Below, one piece after another: positions 14,362 through 47,432 of a stretch of DNA of 55,711 bases. Within the stretch, counting starts at the first letter, position 1; each line of letters begins with the position of its first letter. The translations under genes and the position numbers were made by a program. Source of the DNA: Psychromonas aquimarina ATCC BAA-1526 (GTDB lineage Bacteria > Pseudomonadota > Gammaproteobacteria > Enterobacterales > Psychromonadaceae); NCBI RefSeq assembly GCF_000428725.1, contig NZ_AUAM01000030.1, positions 1-55,711 of the forward strand, read 5' to 3'. Under the pieces are notes generated by a model, which made no database searches, had not been told where the DNA came from, and saw only the letters and a list, made by a program, of their open reading frames with translations.

Positions 14362-14686
14362 GACCTTAACTCCTAAATTCTGTATACAAGGGATAATCAA
14401 AGGTCGTGGAATATGCCTTGTAACACGTATATTGTCAAATGGTTTCTTTTTAACCGCTTAAAAAACTGGTAAGAAACCAGGTAGATGGTTAAACTGCGCG
14501 CATTTTATACCCAAACAGCTTATAGATGCAACTTGATCCTGTAGTTAACAGTGCTGAAAACGGGTGATATCCGCATGCAGTATATTTTATTTTTATTTTG
14601 CTTGTTAAATTAGTGTGTTATTGATCACAGTAATGTGTTTTGCTGTACAGCTGTTTTATTACAAAAATATTTTCGGGAAGTTGATT

Positions 14687-16267
14687 GTGAGTAAAAAATT
14701 ATTGAGATCCGGTTTGATTGTCAGCTCAATGACTTTAGTTTCAAGACTGTTAGGTTTAGTTCGAGATGTAGTGATTGCAAATTTAATGGGGGCCGGCGCA
14801 GCCGCTGATGTTTTTTTCTTCGCGAATAAGATCCCTAATTTTCTGCGTCGTTTGTTTGCCGAGGGCGCCTTTGCACAAGCTTTTGTACCGGTATTAACTG
14901 AGTATGAAAAAACCAAATCTCCCGATGAGGTAAAAAAACTGATTGCCGCCGTATCCGGAACTCTGGGCACGATAGTGACGATTATTACCATCCTGGGGGT
15001 TGTCGGATCGTCGGTGATCACTGCTTTATTCGGCTTCGGCTGGTTTTTAGAATGGTGGAACGACGGGGCGGAAGCGCAGAAATTTGAGCTGGCTTCACTG
15101 ATGTTAAAGATTACTTTTCCCTATTTGTGGTTTATTACTTTTACGGCATTGTCCGGCGCTATTTTAAATACCCTGGGCAAATTTGCTGTGGCGGCATTTA
15201 CACCGGTATTTTTAAATATTGCCATAATCGCCTGTGCACTTTTCCTTTCACCCGGCTTAGCACAACCGGAAATAGGCCTGGCTGTCGGTGTCTTTATCGG
15301 CGGTGCAGTGCAGTTCTTTTTCCAGATTCCATTTTTACGTAGAGAAAATATGCTGGTCAGGCCTACCTGGAGCTGGTCTCACCCCGGTGTTGTAAAAATA
15401 CGAACCCTAATGATTCCGGCAATATTTGGTGTTTCTGTTAGTCAGATTAATCTGCTCCTTGATACTCTGATTGCGAGTTTTTTACAAACGGGCTCAATCA
15501 GCTGGTTATATTATTCAGACCGCCTGCTGGAGTTTCCGCTAGGTTTGTTTGGTATTGCTATTGCTACGGTTATTTTACCAAGTTTATCTTCATCCCATGT
15601 TACCGAATCAAAGGAGCATTTTGCGAAAACTCTAGACTGGGGTATTCGTATGGTGTGTTTTTTAGGATTTCCAGCAATGTTAGGTTTAATTGTGCTGGCT
15701 GAACCTATGCTGCGGGTATTATTTATGCGCGGTGAATTTGATATGCATGATGTGTCGATGGCATCAATGAGTTTGTGGGCATATGCCAGCGGTCTGCTCA
15801 GCTTTATGCTGGTGAAAATTTTAGCGCCGGGGTATTACTCGCGTCAGGATACCAAAACACCGGTTAAATACGGCATTATCGCGATGCTCAGCAATATGGT
15901 GTTAAATATTATTTTTGCGATTCCTTATGGTTATGTCGGTCTGGCGATTGCGACTGCATTGTCGGCAACATTAAATGCTTCTCTATTGTGGTTAGGTTTA
16001 TACCGAAGCGGTGTTTATCAGGTGCAGAAAGGCAGTATTTCAGTACTGCTGCGCATTGCCGCAGCCGGCCTGCTGATGGCCGCGGGGTTATTTATGTACA
16101 GCCCGTCTTTGCTGGAGTGGACTCAATTCTCGCTGTTTGAGGCTGCCTTAAAATTGTTTACCTTGATAGGCTGCGCTGTTGTGTTTTATTTTGCTGCGCT
16201 GGGCATTATCGGCATCCGTTTTTCACATTTTAAAGTTTCAGTAGAGAATGATAAAAATGAGAGCTGA
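14687..16267 (+). CDS. murJ: Lipid II flippase MurJ (MviN)
   Basis: Inner-membrane flippase of the MOP superfamily that moves lipid II across the membrane for peptidoglycan synthesis. From the GTG at 14687 there are 526 residues with about 14 hydrophobic segments. N-terminal signatures are SMTLVSRLLGLVRDVVIA and FFANKIPNFLRRLFAEGAFA (about residues 46-65), followed by FVPVL. LLEFPLGLFGIAIATV lies mid-protein. The start is supported by family homology and CGGGAAG upstream; earlier in-frame starts would add an unrelated hydrophobic leader. It lies between rpsT and ribF, as in Vibrio. Confidence 0.96.
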   Translation: MSKKLLRSGLIVSSMTLVSRLLGLVRDVVIANLMGAGAAADVFFFANKIPNFLRRLFAEGAFAQAFVPVLTEYEKTKSPDEVKKLIAAVSGTLGTIVTIITILGVVGSSVITALFGFGWFLEWWNDGAEAQKFELASLMLKITFPYLWFITFTALSGAILNTLGKFAVAAFTPVFLNIAIIACALFLSPGLAQPEIGLAVGVFIGGAVQFFFQIPFLRRENMLVRPTWSWSHPGVVKIRTLMIPAIFGVSVSQINLLLDTLIASFLQTGSISWLYYSDRLLEFPLGLFGIAIATVILPSLSSSHVTESKEHFAKTLDWGIRMVCFLGFPAMLGLIVLAEPMLRVLFMRGEFDMHDVSMASMSLWAYASGLLSFMLVKILAPGYYSRQDTKTPVKYGIIAMLSNMVLNIIFAIPYGYVGLAIATALSATLNASLLWLGLYRSGVYQVQKGSISVLLRIAAAGLLMAAGLFMYSPSLLEWTQFSLFEAALKLFTLIGCAVVFYFAALGIIGIRFSHFKVSVENDKNES

Positions 16268-16283
16268 ATAGTTGCTCACTCTG

Positions 16284-16292
16284 ATATATAAT
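16284..16292 (+). promoter_or_regulatory. Possible promoter before the ribF repeat array
   Basis: TGATATATAAT contains both a TATAAT and an extended-type TG upstream, just after murJ. No clear -35 is seen. It would transcribe the repeat array and ribF. Confidence 0.35.
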
Positions 16293-16333
16293 CCTCTCTT
16301 TTGCATTTTATAGATCTTAAATAAGTCAAAATA

Positions 16334-16474
16334 ATGAAATTACTGCGCGGTGTTCACAATCTAAAAATGAGCACCGAGGTCGCGTATTAAGTATTGGGGC
16401 AGACTTTAATGACAGCTATGGGATTCATTTCGGCTGAAGTGCATTTTTAGTGCAGAGAGTAATGGTTAAATAGC
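16334..16474 (+). pseudogene. ribF fragment, unit 1 (frameshifted)
   Basis: It has the ribF start MKLLRGVHNLK, then a missing A in the A-run moves it out of frame and a TAA follows within 10 codons. With the frame restored the unit would read like the other copies through VLSIG. It is a non-functional remnant of the first tandem copy and keeps the unit length of 141 bp. Confidence 0.75.
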
Positions 16475-16756
16475 ATGAAATTATTACGTGGTATCCACAA
16501 TCTAAAAAATGAGCACCGAGGCCGCGTATTAAGTATTGGTGCCGGTTTTATTGACAGCAATGGGATTCATTTCTGCTGCCGTGCCTTCTTAGCGCAGAAA
16601 AAATGGTTAAATAGCATGAAATTATTGCGTGGTATTCACAATTTAAAAAATGAGCACCGAGGCTGCGTATTAAGTATTGGTGTAGGTTTTAATGACAGCA
16701 ATGGTATTCATTTCGGCAGCTGTGCACTTTTCTTGTTGAGAACAATGGTTAAATAG
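16475..16756 (+). pseudogene. ribF fragments, units 2 and 3 fused in one 93-codon frame
   Basis: Two 47-codon units are joined in frame, each beginning MKLLRGIHNLKNEHRG and then VLSIG. The RibF motif GNFDGIHLGHQ is replaced by GxGFxDSNGIHF with extra residues, so no nucleotidyltransferase site can form. The frame ends with TAG at 16754-16756, one base before the ribF ATG, a geometry suited to translational re-initiation. No Shine-Dalgarno is visible before 16475, 16616 or 16758. It may be translated as a leader of ribF or may simply be decaying DNA; comparison among relatives would decide. Confidence 0.6.
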
Positions 16757-16757
16757 C

Positions 16758-17690
16758 ATGAAATTATTGCGTGGCATTCACAATTTGAAAAATGAGCACC
16801 GAGGCTGCGTATTAAGTATCGGCAACTTTGACGGCATTCATTTAGGCCATCAAGCGGTTCTGAATCGTTTATTAATAGAGGCTGAACGCCTTAATGTACC
16901 GGCCGTTGTTTTGACTTTTGAGCCTCAGCCGGCGGAACTGTTTGCCGGGGATAATGCACCGGCGCGTTTAAGCCGTCTGCGTGATAAGTTTGTGCAGTTA
17001 GAAAAGCAAGGTCTGGACCGTTTATTATGCGTCTCTTTTACGCATCATTTTGCCAATCTAAGTGCTGAAGATTTTATTGCTGAACTACTGATTAAGAAAC
17101 TGGATATAAAGTATCTGGTGGTTGGCGATGATTTCCATTTTGGTTATCAGCGTAAAGGCGATTTTGCACTGCTTAAACAGGCCGGTAAAAAGTACGGCTT
17201 TGAAGTGATTGATACACAGAGTTTAATGCAGAGTGATCTGCGTATCAGCAGTACCCGTATTCGTGATGCTTTAGCGCAGGGAGACCTGCAGCGAGCCTCT
17301 GCCATGTTGGGGCGAAAATACAGCATTGCCGGCAGAGTTGTGCATGGTCAGAAGCTCGGTCGTACAATCGGCGTGCCGACTGCAAATCTGCTGTTAAAGC
17401 GTCGAGTTTCTCCGGTCTCTGGAGTTTACGTTGTTTCGGTTCTGGGTATAAACGAAAAAGTTTATCAGGGAGTTGCTAATATAGGGCAGCGTCCGACCGT
17501 ACAGGGAGTTCGTCAGCAGCTGGAGGTGCACCTGTTTGATTTCAGCGCGGATCTCTATGGACTGCAGTTAGAAGTTATTTTAGAAGAAAAACTGCGTGAT
17601 GAAGTACGATTTGATTCATTCGCAGAATTAAAAATTCAAATTGATAAAGATATTGAACTGGCCAGAGAGTGGCACAATAAAAAATCGTAA
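16758..17690 (+). CDS. ribF: Bifunctional riboflavin kinase/FAD synthetase RibF
   Basis: Makes FMN from riboflavin and FAD from FMN. The 310 residues carry an N-terminal FAD-synthetase domain with SIGNFDGIHLGHQAVL (about residues 20-35), the second-half motif ISSTRIRDALAQGDL (about 163-177), and a C-terminal riboflavin-kinase domain with GRTIGVPTANL (about 204-214) and GVANIGQRPTV. The length is typical. The ATG is preceded by the repeated GGTTAAATAGC segment and no evident Shine-Dalgarno; the stop of the upstream repeat frame is one base away. ileS follows after 28 bp. Confidence 0.97.
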   Translation: MKLLRGIHNLKNEHRGCVLSIGNFDGIHLGHQAVLNRLLIEAERLNVPAVVLTFEPQPAELFAGDNAPARLSRLRDKFVQLEKQGLDRLLCVSFTHHFANLSAEDFIAELLIKKLDIKYLVVGDDFHFGYQRKGDFALLKQAGKKYGFEVIDTQSLMQSDLRISSTRIRDALAQGDLQRASAMLGRKYSIAGRVVHGQKLGRTIGVPTANLLLKRRVSPVSGVYVVSVLGINEKVYQGVANIGQRPTVQGVRQQLEVHLFDFSADLYGLQLEVILEEKLRDEVRFDSFAELKIQIDKDIELAREWHNKKS

Positions 17691-17718: not shown

Positions 17719-20553
17719 ATGAGTGACTATAAAAACACGTTAAACCTGCCTAAAACCGGTTTTCCGATGCGTGCAAACCTTGCCAATCGTGAACCAAATA
17801 TGTTGAAAAACTGGTACAGCAAGGATCTTTACGGAAAGATCCGGGCTGCGAAAAAAGGTAAAAAGACATTCATTCTGCATGACGGCCCTCCGTATGCAAA
17901 TGGTGATATCCATATCGGTCACTCGGTTAACAAAATTCTTAAAGATATTATTATCAAATCAAAAACGCTTGCTGATTTTGATGCACCGTACGTTCCCGGC
18001 TGGGATTGTCACGGTCTGCCGATTGAATTAAAAGTAGAGCAGAAACACGGTAAGCCGGGTAAAAAATTAACACCGGCGCAGTTCCGTATTAAATGCCGTG
18101 AATATGCAGCTCGTCAGGTTGACGGTCAGCGTAAAGATTTTAAACGTCTGGGTGTGTTAGGTGAATGGGAAAACCCGTACCTGACCATGAACTTTGAAAC
18201 TGAAGCAAACATTGTACGTGCTCTGGCTAAAATTATTGAAAATAAACACCTGCATAAAGGTTCTAAACCTGTGCACTGGTGTACAGACTGCGGCTCTGCA
18301 CTAGCAGAAGCTGAAGTTGAATACGAAGATAAGAAATCACCGGCGATTGATGTTGCATTTGCAGCGGTAAATCCGGAGCAGGTGGTCAGCTGCTTTACTC
18401 CTCAAGCGGATGATTTAGGCACTGGTGATGTTTGTCTGGTTATCTGGACAACAACTCCGTGGACACTGCCGGCGAACCGTGCAGTAGCACTGTCTGAGAA
18501 AGTTGAATACTCATTAGTGCAGGCGGGCGAACGCCGTTTAGTTTTAGCATCACATTTAGTTGCTGACTGTATGGCGCGTTATGAAATTGAAGATTTCAAA
18601 GTATTAGCTATCTGTACCGGTATTGATTTAGAGAAAAAACTTTTCAATCACCCGTTCTTGAAAATCGAAGTGCCTGCAATTGTTGCTGATCACGTTACTA
18701 TTGAAGCTGGTACAGGTTGTGTACATACCGCTCCCGGGCATGGTCAGGACGATTACTCGGTTGGTTTACGTTACGATTTAGAAGTAGCGAACCCGGTTGG
18801 TGATAACGGTGTATTTAGAGAAGATACAGAGTTTTTTGCTGGTTTACATGTATTTAAAGCAAATGACCGTGTTGTTGAAGTACTGCAGGAAAATAATGCA
18901 TTGTTATGTCACAAGCCGTTATTACACAGCTACCCGCACTGCTGGAGACATAAAACGCCGATCATCTTCCGTGCGACACCGCAGTGGTTTATCTCAATGG
19001 ATCAAAAAGGTCTGCGTGACGGTGCATTAGGTGAAATCAAAGATGTTAAATGGATCCCGAGCTGGGGACAGAGCCGTATCGAAAAAATGATCGAAAACCG
19101 CCCTGACTGGTGTATCTCCCGTCAGCGTACCTGGGGTGTTCCGATTACTCTGTTTGTTAATAAAGAAACAGACGAGCTGCATGAAAACAGTGTTGAGATG
19201 ATGGAGCTGATTGCCCGTAAAATCGAAAAAGAGGGTATTCAGGCATGGTGGGACTTAGAGCCTGAGTCTCTGCTTGGTTTTGAAGCTGAGCAGTACCGTA
19301 AAGTAACCGATACTTTAGATGTATGGTTCGATTCTGGCAGCACTCACTCAGCAGTAGTTGGTGTACGTGATGAATATACTCAGGAATCCGGCGAACAGGC
19401 GAATATCGACCTTTACCTTGAAGGCTCAGATCAGCATCGCGGCTGGTTCCAGTCATCACTGCTGACCAGTGTCGCAATTAAAAATCAGGCGCCGTACAAA
19501 GAAGTGTTAACGCATGGTTTTGTAGTTGACGGTCAAGGCAAAAAAATGTCTAAGTCTTTAGGCAATGTGATGTCTCCGCAGAAGGTAATGAACGAGCTGG
19601 GTGCTGATGTACTGCGTTTATGGGTTGCATCAACGGACTATACGGGTGAGATCACTGTTTCTGATGAGATTTTAAACCGCAGCGCAGACAGCTACCGACG
19701 TATCCGTAATACGTCACGCTTCCTGCTGGCTAACTTAAACGGTTTTGAGCCGAGCACTGATATTGTGCCGAGTGAAGAGATGGTGGCATTAGACCGCTGG
19801 ATCGTTGCACAGACTCTGACTCTGCAGAATGAAGTGATTGAAGCATACGAAAGCTACAACCTGCATGTGGTTTATCAGAAACTGATGCACTTCTGTTCGA
19901 TTGAGCTGGGCAGTTTCTACCTGGATATCATTAAGGACCGCCAGTACACAGCGAAAACTGACAGCAACGCACGCCGCAGCTGTCAGACTGCGCTGTATCA
20001 TATTGCTGAAGCGCTGGTTCGCTTAATGGCGCCGATCTTAAGCTTCACTGCTGATGAGATCTGGGGACGTATGCCGGGCGAACGTGATGAGTTTGTTTTC
20101 ACCGATGTCTGGTATGATGGTTTATTCGGCCTTTCTGACCATGAAGTTTTAAGTAACGATGCCTGGGCAAATCTGATTTCTGTACGTGCAGAAGTAAATA
20201 AAGCGTTAGAGCTGGCACGTAAAGAAAACGTAATCGGCGGCGGTCTCGAAGCTGAGGTAACACTTTATGCTTCACCTGAACTGACAGCTTTATTAACCAG
20301 CCTGGAAGATGAACTGCGTTTTGTATTAATCACTTCTAAAGCTGAAATTAAGCCGTTAGCAGATGCTCCTGACAGCGCCGTTGAAACTGAAGTGACAGGT
20401 TTATCTGTTGCTGTTGCTAAAAGTGCCGCTGAGAAGTGTGACCGCTGCTGGCACCATAATGAAGAAGTCGGCAAACATGAAGCTCATCCGGATTTATGCG
20501 GCCGTTGTGTAACAAATATTGACGGTGCCGGTGAAGTACGTAAATTTGCGTAA
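17719..20553 (+). CDS. ileS: Isoleucyl-tRNA synthetase
   Basis: Class Ia enzyme charging tRNA-Ile, 944 residues, full length. The HIGH motif is at residues 65-68 ([13 protein letters not shown]) and KMSKS at about 609-613 ([10 protein letters not shown]). The editing domain contains the [16 protein letters not shown] stretch and [12 protein letters not shown]. The C-terminal zinc-binding finger has CDRCW and CGRCV. It sits between ribF and lspA, the conserved order in proteobacteria. A strong terminator follows the stop. Confidence 0.98.
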
Positions 20554-46136: not shown

Positions 46137-47432
46137 ATGAGCTTTGATTCCTTAGGTTTACCCGATTCATTAGTAAAAGCAGTTAAAGAACAGGGGTATA
46201 CTGAACCGTCTCCGATTCAGGCTCAGGCGATCCCGGCAGTTTTACAAGGTAAAGACGTGATGGCGGCCGCTCAGACAGGTACCGGCAAAACAGCCGGTTT
46301 TACTTTACCGCTGCTGGCAAACTTGGAGCATGGTGAACGCGCTAAAGCGAATCAGGTGCGTGCATTAATATTAACGCCGACACGTGAGCTGGCGGCTCAA
46401 GTACATGCTAGTGTAGAAAATTACGGCAAAAATATGCCGCTTCGCTCAGCTGTTGTATTCGGCGGCGTGAAAATAAATCCGCAGATGCAGAATCTACGCC
46501 GCGGTGTGGATGTATTAGTCGCAACACCGGGACGTTTATTAGATTTGTACCAGCAGAATGCAATACGTTTTAAGCAGTTAGAAGTACTGATTCTGGATGA
46601 AGCTGACCGTATGCTGGATATGGGTTTTATTCATGATATTAAAAGAATATTAGGTTTTTTACCTAAAAAGCGTCAGAACCTGCTTTTCTCTGCCACTTTC
46701 TCTGATGATATTCGTAATCTGGCAAAGGGGTTGGTAAACAATCCGGTTGAGATTTCAGTAAGCCCGCGTAATACCACAGCAGAAAGTGTGACGCAGTTTA
46801 TTTACGAGGTAGATAAAACTAAAAAATCGATTGTGTTAAGTACCTTAATTAAAGAACAAAACTGGGAACAAGTATTAGTGTTTGTTAAAACTAAACATGG
46901 TGCCAACCGTTTAGTTAAAAACTTAGATGCCCGCGGAATCCGCTCGGCCGCTATTCATGGCAATAAAAGCCAGGGCGCGCGTACTAAAGCCTTAGCCGGA
47001 TTTAAAGAAGGTCAGATTCAAGTATTAGTGGCAACGGATATCGCCGCACGTGGTATCGATATTGATCAGCTGCCGCAGGTTGTTAATTTCGATCTGCCGC
47101 ATGTCAGCGAAGATTATGTACACCGTATCGGCCGTACCGGTCGAGCAGGTAATGACGGACAAGCTGTTTCTTTAGTCTGTCAGGAAGAGTTTAAACTGCT
47201 CAAAGATATTGAAAAACTGATTAAAAAAGTTATTCCGCGTAAAACGGTTGAAGGTTTTGAACCGGGAGAGCCTCTGCCGCCGTCAGTATTAGATACGCGT
47301 GCACCTAAACCTAAAAAACCTAAAAAACCTAAAAAACCTAAACCAGGTCACCGTGACGGTTTGCGTTCAGGTCCGAAAACCGGCAGTAATAAAAAACAGC
47401 GTTCAGCACGTAATAACTTTGTTGGTGAATAA
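46137..47432 (+). CDS. rhlE: DEAD-box RNA helicase RhlE
   Basis: A 431-residue ATP-dependent RNA helicase involved in ribosome maturation and RNA turnover. Motifs in order: Q-motif [14 protein letters not shown], motif [27 protein letters not shown], motif II DEAD ([12 protein letters not shown]), motif [18 protein letters not shown] and motif [12 protein letters not shown]. The C-terminal tail is basic with a short PKK repeat (DNA about 47303-47343, from a CCTAAAAAA microrepeat) that may vary in length by slippage. A strong terminator follows. Confidence 0.95.

Follow-up and report, generated by a model that had tools for sequence, protein, structure and literature searches.

In Psychromonas aquimarina ATCC BAA-1526, the 5' end of ribF is present three times head-to-tail between murJ and ribF itself, in copies of 141, 141 and 142 bp that we call units 1 to 3. 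The array is real, and its origin is well supported: a partial duplication of ribF, as old as a clade of Psychromonas species, acquired a new segment, was amplified in the window genome and had its 5' block homogenised. The original prediction had located the three copies at these intervals directly before ribF (16334-16757) and had held that one copy diverged first and was then amplified; both statements are borne out, and the divergence is older than had been assumed, since the new segment is shared with other species. With respect to the use of the array, a leader ORF whose translation would be coupled to that of ribF is the best functional reading, with about even odds, and its main rival is neutral turnover. 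In the following, the window denotes the whole stretch of DNA analysed, 55,711 nt in length; its relevant features are collected in Table 1.

Table 1. Features of the ribF locus discussed in the text
Feature	Position	Strand	Basis or remark
murJ, upstream gene	14615..16267	+	Pfam MurJ E 3.7e-140; putative start codon
TATAAT, probable -10 box of the ribF promoter	16287..16292	+	Conservation in the genus; 47 nt 5' of the unit 1 ATG
Unit 1, decayed copy	16334..16474	+	141 bp; ends in mini-ORF ATGGTTAAATAG, then C
Unit 2, open, in frame into unit 3	16475..16615	+	141 bp
Unit 3, ribF-proximal, intact 46-codon ORF MKLLRGIHNLKNEHRGCVLSIGVGFNDSNGIHFGSCALFLLRTMVK	16616..16757	+	TAG 16754-16756, then C, then the ribF ATG
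Unit-specific segment VGFNDS, unit 3 residues 23-28	16682..16699	+	Replaces NF of ribF, net +12 bp
ribF, bifunctional riboflavin kinase/FAD synthetase, 310 aa	16758..17690	+	Pfam FAD_syn E 2.8e-55, Flavokinase E 1.9e-41
ileS, downstream gene	17719..20553	+	Pfam tRNA-synt_1 E 4e-151

Tandem Repeats Finder scores the array at 693 with 87% matches. The first 62 bp of every unit closely resemble the start of ribF; past codon 22, each unit carries a net insertion of 12 bp, present in all three units and absent from ribF, and then continues as a diverged copy of the nucleotide-binding region of ribF. Every unit closes with ATGGTTAAATAGC immediately 5' of the next ATG, so that the mini-ORF ATGGTTAAATAG, a C and the next ATG follow each other at the end of each unit (16462-16474, 16603-16615 and 16745-16757), and this terminal mini-ORF is retained in the decayed unit 1 as well as in the unit of Psychromonas ossibalaenae. 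Units 2 and 3 form a single ORF of 93 codons (16475-16756), whose stop codon lies one base before the ribF ATG. Over the first 22 codons, unit 3 and ribF differ at four, all of them synonymous, while unit 1 has lost one A from an A-run and thereby been reduced to an ORF of 18 codons (read by hand). The deletion, the in-frame fusion, the stop-start spacing, the four synonymous codons and the common insertion had all been predicted, and all are confirmed. At E 0.1, neither the ORF of units 2 and 3 nor the related ORFs P0002, P0006 and P0008, introduced below, have a match in Pfam; ribF itself matches FAD_syn and Flavokinase.

A search of the whole genome with units 2 and 3 gave a match at the ribF locus only (E <= 0.001). 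As a control, we used the mechanically called ORFs of the window, 57 including ribF: none of the 56 others of at least 100 aa has a copy of its own start within 400 nt upstream, the best score being 14, compared with 59 for ribF. A mobile or dispersed repeat was rejected on the absence of a further genomic copy at the above threshold and of any match among plasmid records, and a strain-restricted duplication on the units and remnants in relatives. Of 19 stretches on viral contigs that fitted a pattern, none codes for a relative. Short tandem repeats are prone to mis-assembly, and the P. ossibalaenae assembly breaks exactly at the repeat; yet the three units of the window differ from one another throughout their length, and the unit 1 of P. 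ossibalaenae, a different species, is orthologous and joined to the upstream sequence at the same point. That a short repeat was mis-assembled into the units is therefore already largely refuted and appears highly improbable.

Relatives were compared at the DNA level in a set comprising the window genome (G000) and 23 Psychromonas genus mates, among them P. ossibalaenae (G016), Psychromonas sp. GLG-1 (G001) and P. antarctica (G005). P. ossibalaenae, whose RibF is 97% identical to that of the window, has at least one unit, directly behind the promoter region. The repeat holds the last bases of one of its contigs and the first bases of another, and the two overlap perfectly over 92 bp; since assemblers behave in this way at branching repeats, we infer at least two units, of which one is seen. 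This unit 1 has its upstream junction and its tail in common with unit 1 of the window and carries a different frameshift. Moreover, the units of both genomes share a TGA, which recurs in the P. ossibalaenae tail adjoining ribF, the known part of that unit.

In P. antarctica, a degenerate unit is found behind the promoter region, and its score against the species' own ribF start (19) was reached by none of 300 shuffles. Compared with the individual units, the score of this remnant was reached by 0 of 1000 shuffles for unit 2, 48 of 1000 for the P. ossibalaenae unit (marginal), 156 of 1000 for unit 1 and 188 of 1000 for unit 3. The corresponding match of GLG-1 to its own ribF start is not significant (19/300 shuffles); over 68 nt within its last 80 nt before ribF, it matches the 3' half of unit 3 with a score that none of 1000 shuffles reached, and the same result (0/1000) was obtained with unit 1, unit 2 and the P. 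ossibalaenae unit. This GLG-1 remnant reads NNGVHLGCFVVFIVGNNK, followed by a stop 5 nt before ribF, and the P. antarctica remnant stops at the same distance (both counted by hand). When 29 ribF loci were tested against shuffles of the 160 nt upstream, with P. ossibalaenae left out, only the window and P. antarctica exceeded all of their own shuffles.

In a tree of RibF and IleS, P. antarctica, G023, GLG-1, the window genome and P. ossibalaenae form one clade (support 99/98), in which only G023 lacks any trace of a unit; the IleS part of the G004 and G033 rows was wrongly or partly extracted, and neither belongs to this clade. The murJ-ribF gap of related strains, to which the original prediction had looked, thus holds at least one unit in P. 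ossibalaenae and remnants in P. antarctica and GLG-1, but no unit in G023, inside the clade, or in G006 and G022, outside it. A unit profile searched against the 24 genus genomes gave no listed match of unit strength outside the window genome and returned the frameshifted unit 1 of P. ossibalaenae. Likewise, when the search covered 394 genomes from the order, 24 of which belong to the genus, there was no unit-strength match outside the window genome among the matches listed, which reach to about E 1.6e-10; among these, every genome has one match, taken as ribF itself, except G000 (5), G016 (3) and G342 (2, the second of which was not seen). The profile detects intact units only and did not pick up the decayed units of GLG-1 and P. 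antarctica. As a side observation, G004 (L026), a genus mate of 1.7 Mb and 79% completeness, has a ribF match at 1501-2421 with two in-frame stops.

Protein searches revealed eight unit-like ORFs of 43-55 aa on public contigs (P0002-P0008 and P0010); a ninth match, P0009, was dropped as a truncated RibF without the unit-specific segment. All eight share one plan, in which 22 RibF-like residues are followed by the consensus VGFNKS, which is absent from ribF, and then by DGIHLG. Four of them are 45-46 aa long, comparable to the 46 codons of unit 3, and the C-terminal AIIGKNS of P0004 resembles the VIIGINS that closes the P. antarctica remnant. We take these ORFs to be located before ribF, and in Psychromonas. 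As protein databases show intact ORFs only, decayed units are undercounted in this sample.

At positions 23-34, the eight ORFs match unit 3 in 6-9 of 12 residues. The mean pairwise identity among the eight ORFs and unit 3, compared ungapped, is 0.63 over residues 23-34 and 0.19 over residues 35-43; over residues 1-22 it is 0.78, compared with 0.81 among six ribF. Within residues 1-22, changes affect 6 of 112 cells at positions that are invariant in 23 ribF and 32 of 64 at variable positions (Fisher P 8e-12, with cells that are not independent and with L4, common to all eight ORFs, contributing 8 of the 32).

These numbers bear on the main rival. A 5'-end duplication may simply be turning over as slippage and unequal exchange insert and delete units, with conversion by ribF refreshing the first 62 bp and the rest drifting without any function; we regard this as quite possible, though short of an even chance. 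It would explain why the unit 1 frameshifts differ between the window genome and P. ossibalaenae, and why the unit is decayed in P. antarctica, has lost its 5' block in GLG-1 and is missing from G023. However, conversion by ribF cannot maintain a segment that ribF does not have, and yet this segment is recognisable in eight other ORFs; furthermore, the 3' half persists in GLG-1 although ribF synonymous sites are saturated relative to the window genome (pS 0.755). Among six genomes (G000, G016, G001, G005, G022 and G023), the dS of ribF is 0.40 between G000 and G016 and at least 1.2, mostly saturated, in the other 14 pairs. In simulations of neutral drift, the mean number of matches retained out of 12 fell from 7.6 at 0.2 substitutions per site to 5.0 at 0.4 and 1.9 at 1; at least 6 matches were seen in 0.6% of the runs at 1 substitution per site, and in 38% of those at 0.4, the G000-G016 distance, where 9 of 12 were seen in 2%. 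Neutrality would hence fit only if the ORF carriers were on average about twice as close to the window genome as P. ossibalaenae is. This is unlikely, as their residues 1-22 differ in the way RibF does between species, with changes that fall on ribF-variable positions. If this block was overwritten by ribF, the carriers are distinct species, and if it was not, selection acts on the block; in both cases, purely neutral drift of the unit as a whole is a poor fit. The survival of the segment argues for selection, and the duplication is probably clade-old, although a recent spread of the unit between species with subsequent conversion is conceivable.

The ribF-like block has a history of its own. 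K2 and N12 are found in ribF and in the units of the window genome and P. ossibalaenae, whereas position 2 is E and position 12 is not N in the other 21 ribF and in all eight ORFs. Likewise, the block of the units is 3-10 nt apart from the ribF of these two genomes, as opposed to 13-15 nt from that of GLG-1. By these measures, the block looks to be of more recent date than the segment, an outcome expected of gene conversion or unequal exchange with ribF. Three of the four differences between unit 3 and ribF, at block nt 18, 30 and 66, involve a base of the window ribF that is found in neither the P. ossibalaenae ribF nor any unit, so that the change most simply occurred in ribF, a gene under selection, and is uninformative about unit 3; some more distant ribF have the same base at nt 18 and 66. 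The mainly synonymous divergence in the original prediction is thus observed, but it fails as an argument for translation, because gene conversion with ribF alone leaves mainly synonymous differences, and conversion and the changes of ribF itself account for the pattern without any function of the units. The block changes private to the units, picked by hand, comprise 5 synonymous and 3 nonsynonymous changes and 1 frameshift, with 78% nonsynonymous expected (3/8, P 0.016; 4/9, P 0.03), which is a weak sign of selection.

The position of the array points to a place in the ribF leader. In 18 of the 24 genus genomes, a TATAAT begins 40-59 nt upstream of the ribF ATG; the distance is 104 nt in GLG-1 and 157 nt in P. 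antarctica; none was found upstream of ribF in G004 (within 400 nt) and G018, and P. ossibalaenae was left out of this count. A consensus promoter scan omits the TATAAT at 16287, which has no -35 match, so that its assignment to ribF rests on conservation. The promoter-like sites that the scan does report on the + strand (16163, 16222 and 16307) all start before unit 1, and none starts inside the units. The units thus sit between the probable promoter of ribF and the gene, with unit 1 probably at the old ribF position, and the conserved TATAAT 5' of all units, together with the lack of + strand promoter-like sites inside them, suggests a single transcript. By eye, the stretch 16255-16300 around the probable promoter (AAAATGAGAGCTGA...TATATAATC) is similar across much of the genus.

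Neither any of the three units nor the start of ribF shows notable RNA structure, with folding z-scores between -0.58 and 0.50, and an Rfam search of 16000-17000 found no family at gathering score, with three weak matches below threshold. The one terminator-like site, 16198-16213, lies 5' of the units. A structured RNA, riboswitch or attenuator is consequently not supported, as there is no terminator or structure between the leader ORF and ribF. A nucleotide operator in the first 22 codons of ribF was also rejected, since the fraction of identical codons there (0.58) lies within the 0.40-0.65 of windows along the gene in 23 genomes and indicates no special constraint. The missing Shine-Dalgarno (SD) sequence before ribF, to which the original prediction had drawn attention, is indeed missing, but it is no special feature of this locus, since an SD-like 4-mer within 22 nt of the ribF ATG occurs in 0 of 24 genus genomes.

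To account for these observations, we propose a clade-old, duplicated leader ORF whose 5' block is exchanged with ribF, whose segment is selected and whose translation is coupled to ribF, a proposal that may prove right or wrong with equal probability. In an ancestor shared by P. antarctica, GLG-1, P. ossibalaenae and the window genome, a stretch of about 47 codons from the start of ribF would have undergone tandem duplication, with the copy placed between promoter and gene. This upstream copy would then have gained the 12-bp net insertion (VGFNxS) and so have turned into an ORF of about 46 codons with its stop 1-5 nt short of the ribF ATG. Recombination would have repeatedly replaced the first 62 bp of this ORF with ribF sequence, or swapped the two, and selection would have kept the new segment in many lineages; in the window lineage, unequal exchange would have produced three copies, of which the distal one decayed. 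The mRNA may start about 35 nt 5' of unit 1, and ribosomes may start at the SD-less, A/U-rich site common to each unit and ribF. They would translate the leader ORF, stop at its TAG and re-initiate one base later on ribF, such that translation of the leader would set the output of ribF.

Translational coupling is the most likely use of such a leader ORF, judging from its layout. The distance between stop and ATG, 1 nt at unit 3 and 5 nt in the GLG-1 and P. antarctica remnants, fits a coupled uORF-gene pair, in which stop and start lie within a few nt of each other. According to a review (PMC12548453), the most efficient stop-start spacing in Escherichia coli is -4 to +3 nt, with weaker coupling beyond, one study found coupling halved from +3 to +5 nt, and an SD helps, although the pairs examined in one large study did not strictly depend on it. 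The translated, coupled leader of the original prediction is therefore plausible and is strengthened by unit-like ORFs of similar length that contain the segment, and by stops 1-5 nt before ribF in three lineages, although not by its own synonymous argument. On the other hand, the units look relaxed within the window genome and P. ossibalaenae, given their distinct unit 1 frameshifts and shared TGA, and the segment's presence in the protein sequences of eight further ORFs goes alongside decay or loss in GLG-1, P. antarctica and G023. The prediction's second reading, a rapid turnover of the duplication, also holds in part and is supported by decay, loss, amplification and homogenisation of the 5' block among relatives.

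Coupling alone does not explain why residues 23-34 were retained, which leaves room for a role of the peptide. The units might encode a functional microprotein or nascent leader peptide of 45-50 aa, an N-terminal RibF fragment with an altered nucleotide-binding loop that would act on RibF in trans or on the ribosome in cis. The better conservation of residues 23-34 than of 35-43 speaks for it, as simple coupling needs no peptide sequence; yet the peptide has been lost in unit 1 and in several species, and the protein sequences of the eight ORFs cannot separate selection on nucleotides from selection on the peptide, so that we consider this reading unlikely. A broader formulation of the leader-ORF proposal, in which the duplicated ribF start serves the whole clade as a regulatory leader ORF, with an initiation region that recombination holds in agreement with ribF and a new peptide segment, VGFNxSDGIHLG, that is preserved by selection and controls ribF translation or RibF itself, can be put forward only tentatively.

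Several known systems resemble this arrangement in part. Eukaryotic microProteins arise by partial gene duplication, and each is likewise a small protein from part of a larger relative; the ribF units differ in being bacterial and in preceding their parent gene in cis, as part of its leader. Bacterial regulatory uORFs and leader peptides, of which the topAI uORF is reportedly an example, are also short ORFs in the 5' leader of a gene, but the ribF array has no terminator or notable RNA structure, and its leader descends from the gene it precedes. Translationally coupled pairs and termination-reinitiation, as treated in PMC12548453, share the A/U-rich context and a short ORF whose end lies 1 nt from the following start, whereas the ribF leader duplicates part of the gene downstream of it, start region included, occurs in tandem copies and has no SD before ribF. 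Finally, synthetic 'nonsense' ORF boosters, as outlined in PMC13255528, are short ORFs just upstream of a target start that are proposed to feed ribosomes to it; they have a strong internal ribosome-binding site (RBS) beside the stop, and the ribF units have no visible RBS. In the open-access papers searched, we found nothing on point for a ribF leader peptide, Psychromonas ribF, a uORF or small protein born by partial duplication, or ribF regulation.

If our proposal is correct, the array would represent a natural leader ORF born by partial duplication of its own downstream gene and caught intact, amplified, decayed and lost; one half of its 141-bp unit would be shaped by gene conversion and the other by selection. 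Since FMN and FAD are made by ribF, any such control over ribF translation would matter for the supply of flavins. The locus also carries a more general warning: where one of the tandem copies is a gene under selection and able to convert the other, divergence at synonymous sites only cannot be taken as evidence for translation. Elsewhere in the window, at 47307-47342, the 9-mer AAACCTAAA is present in four perfect copies.
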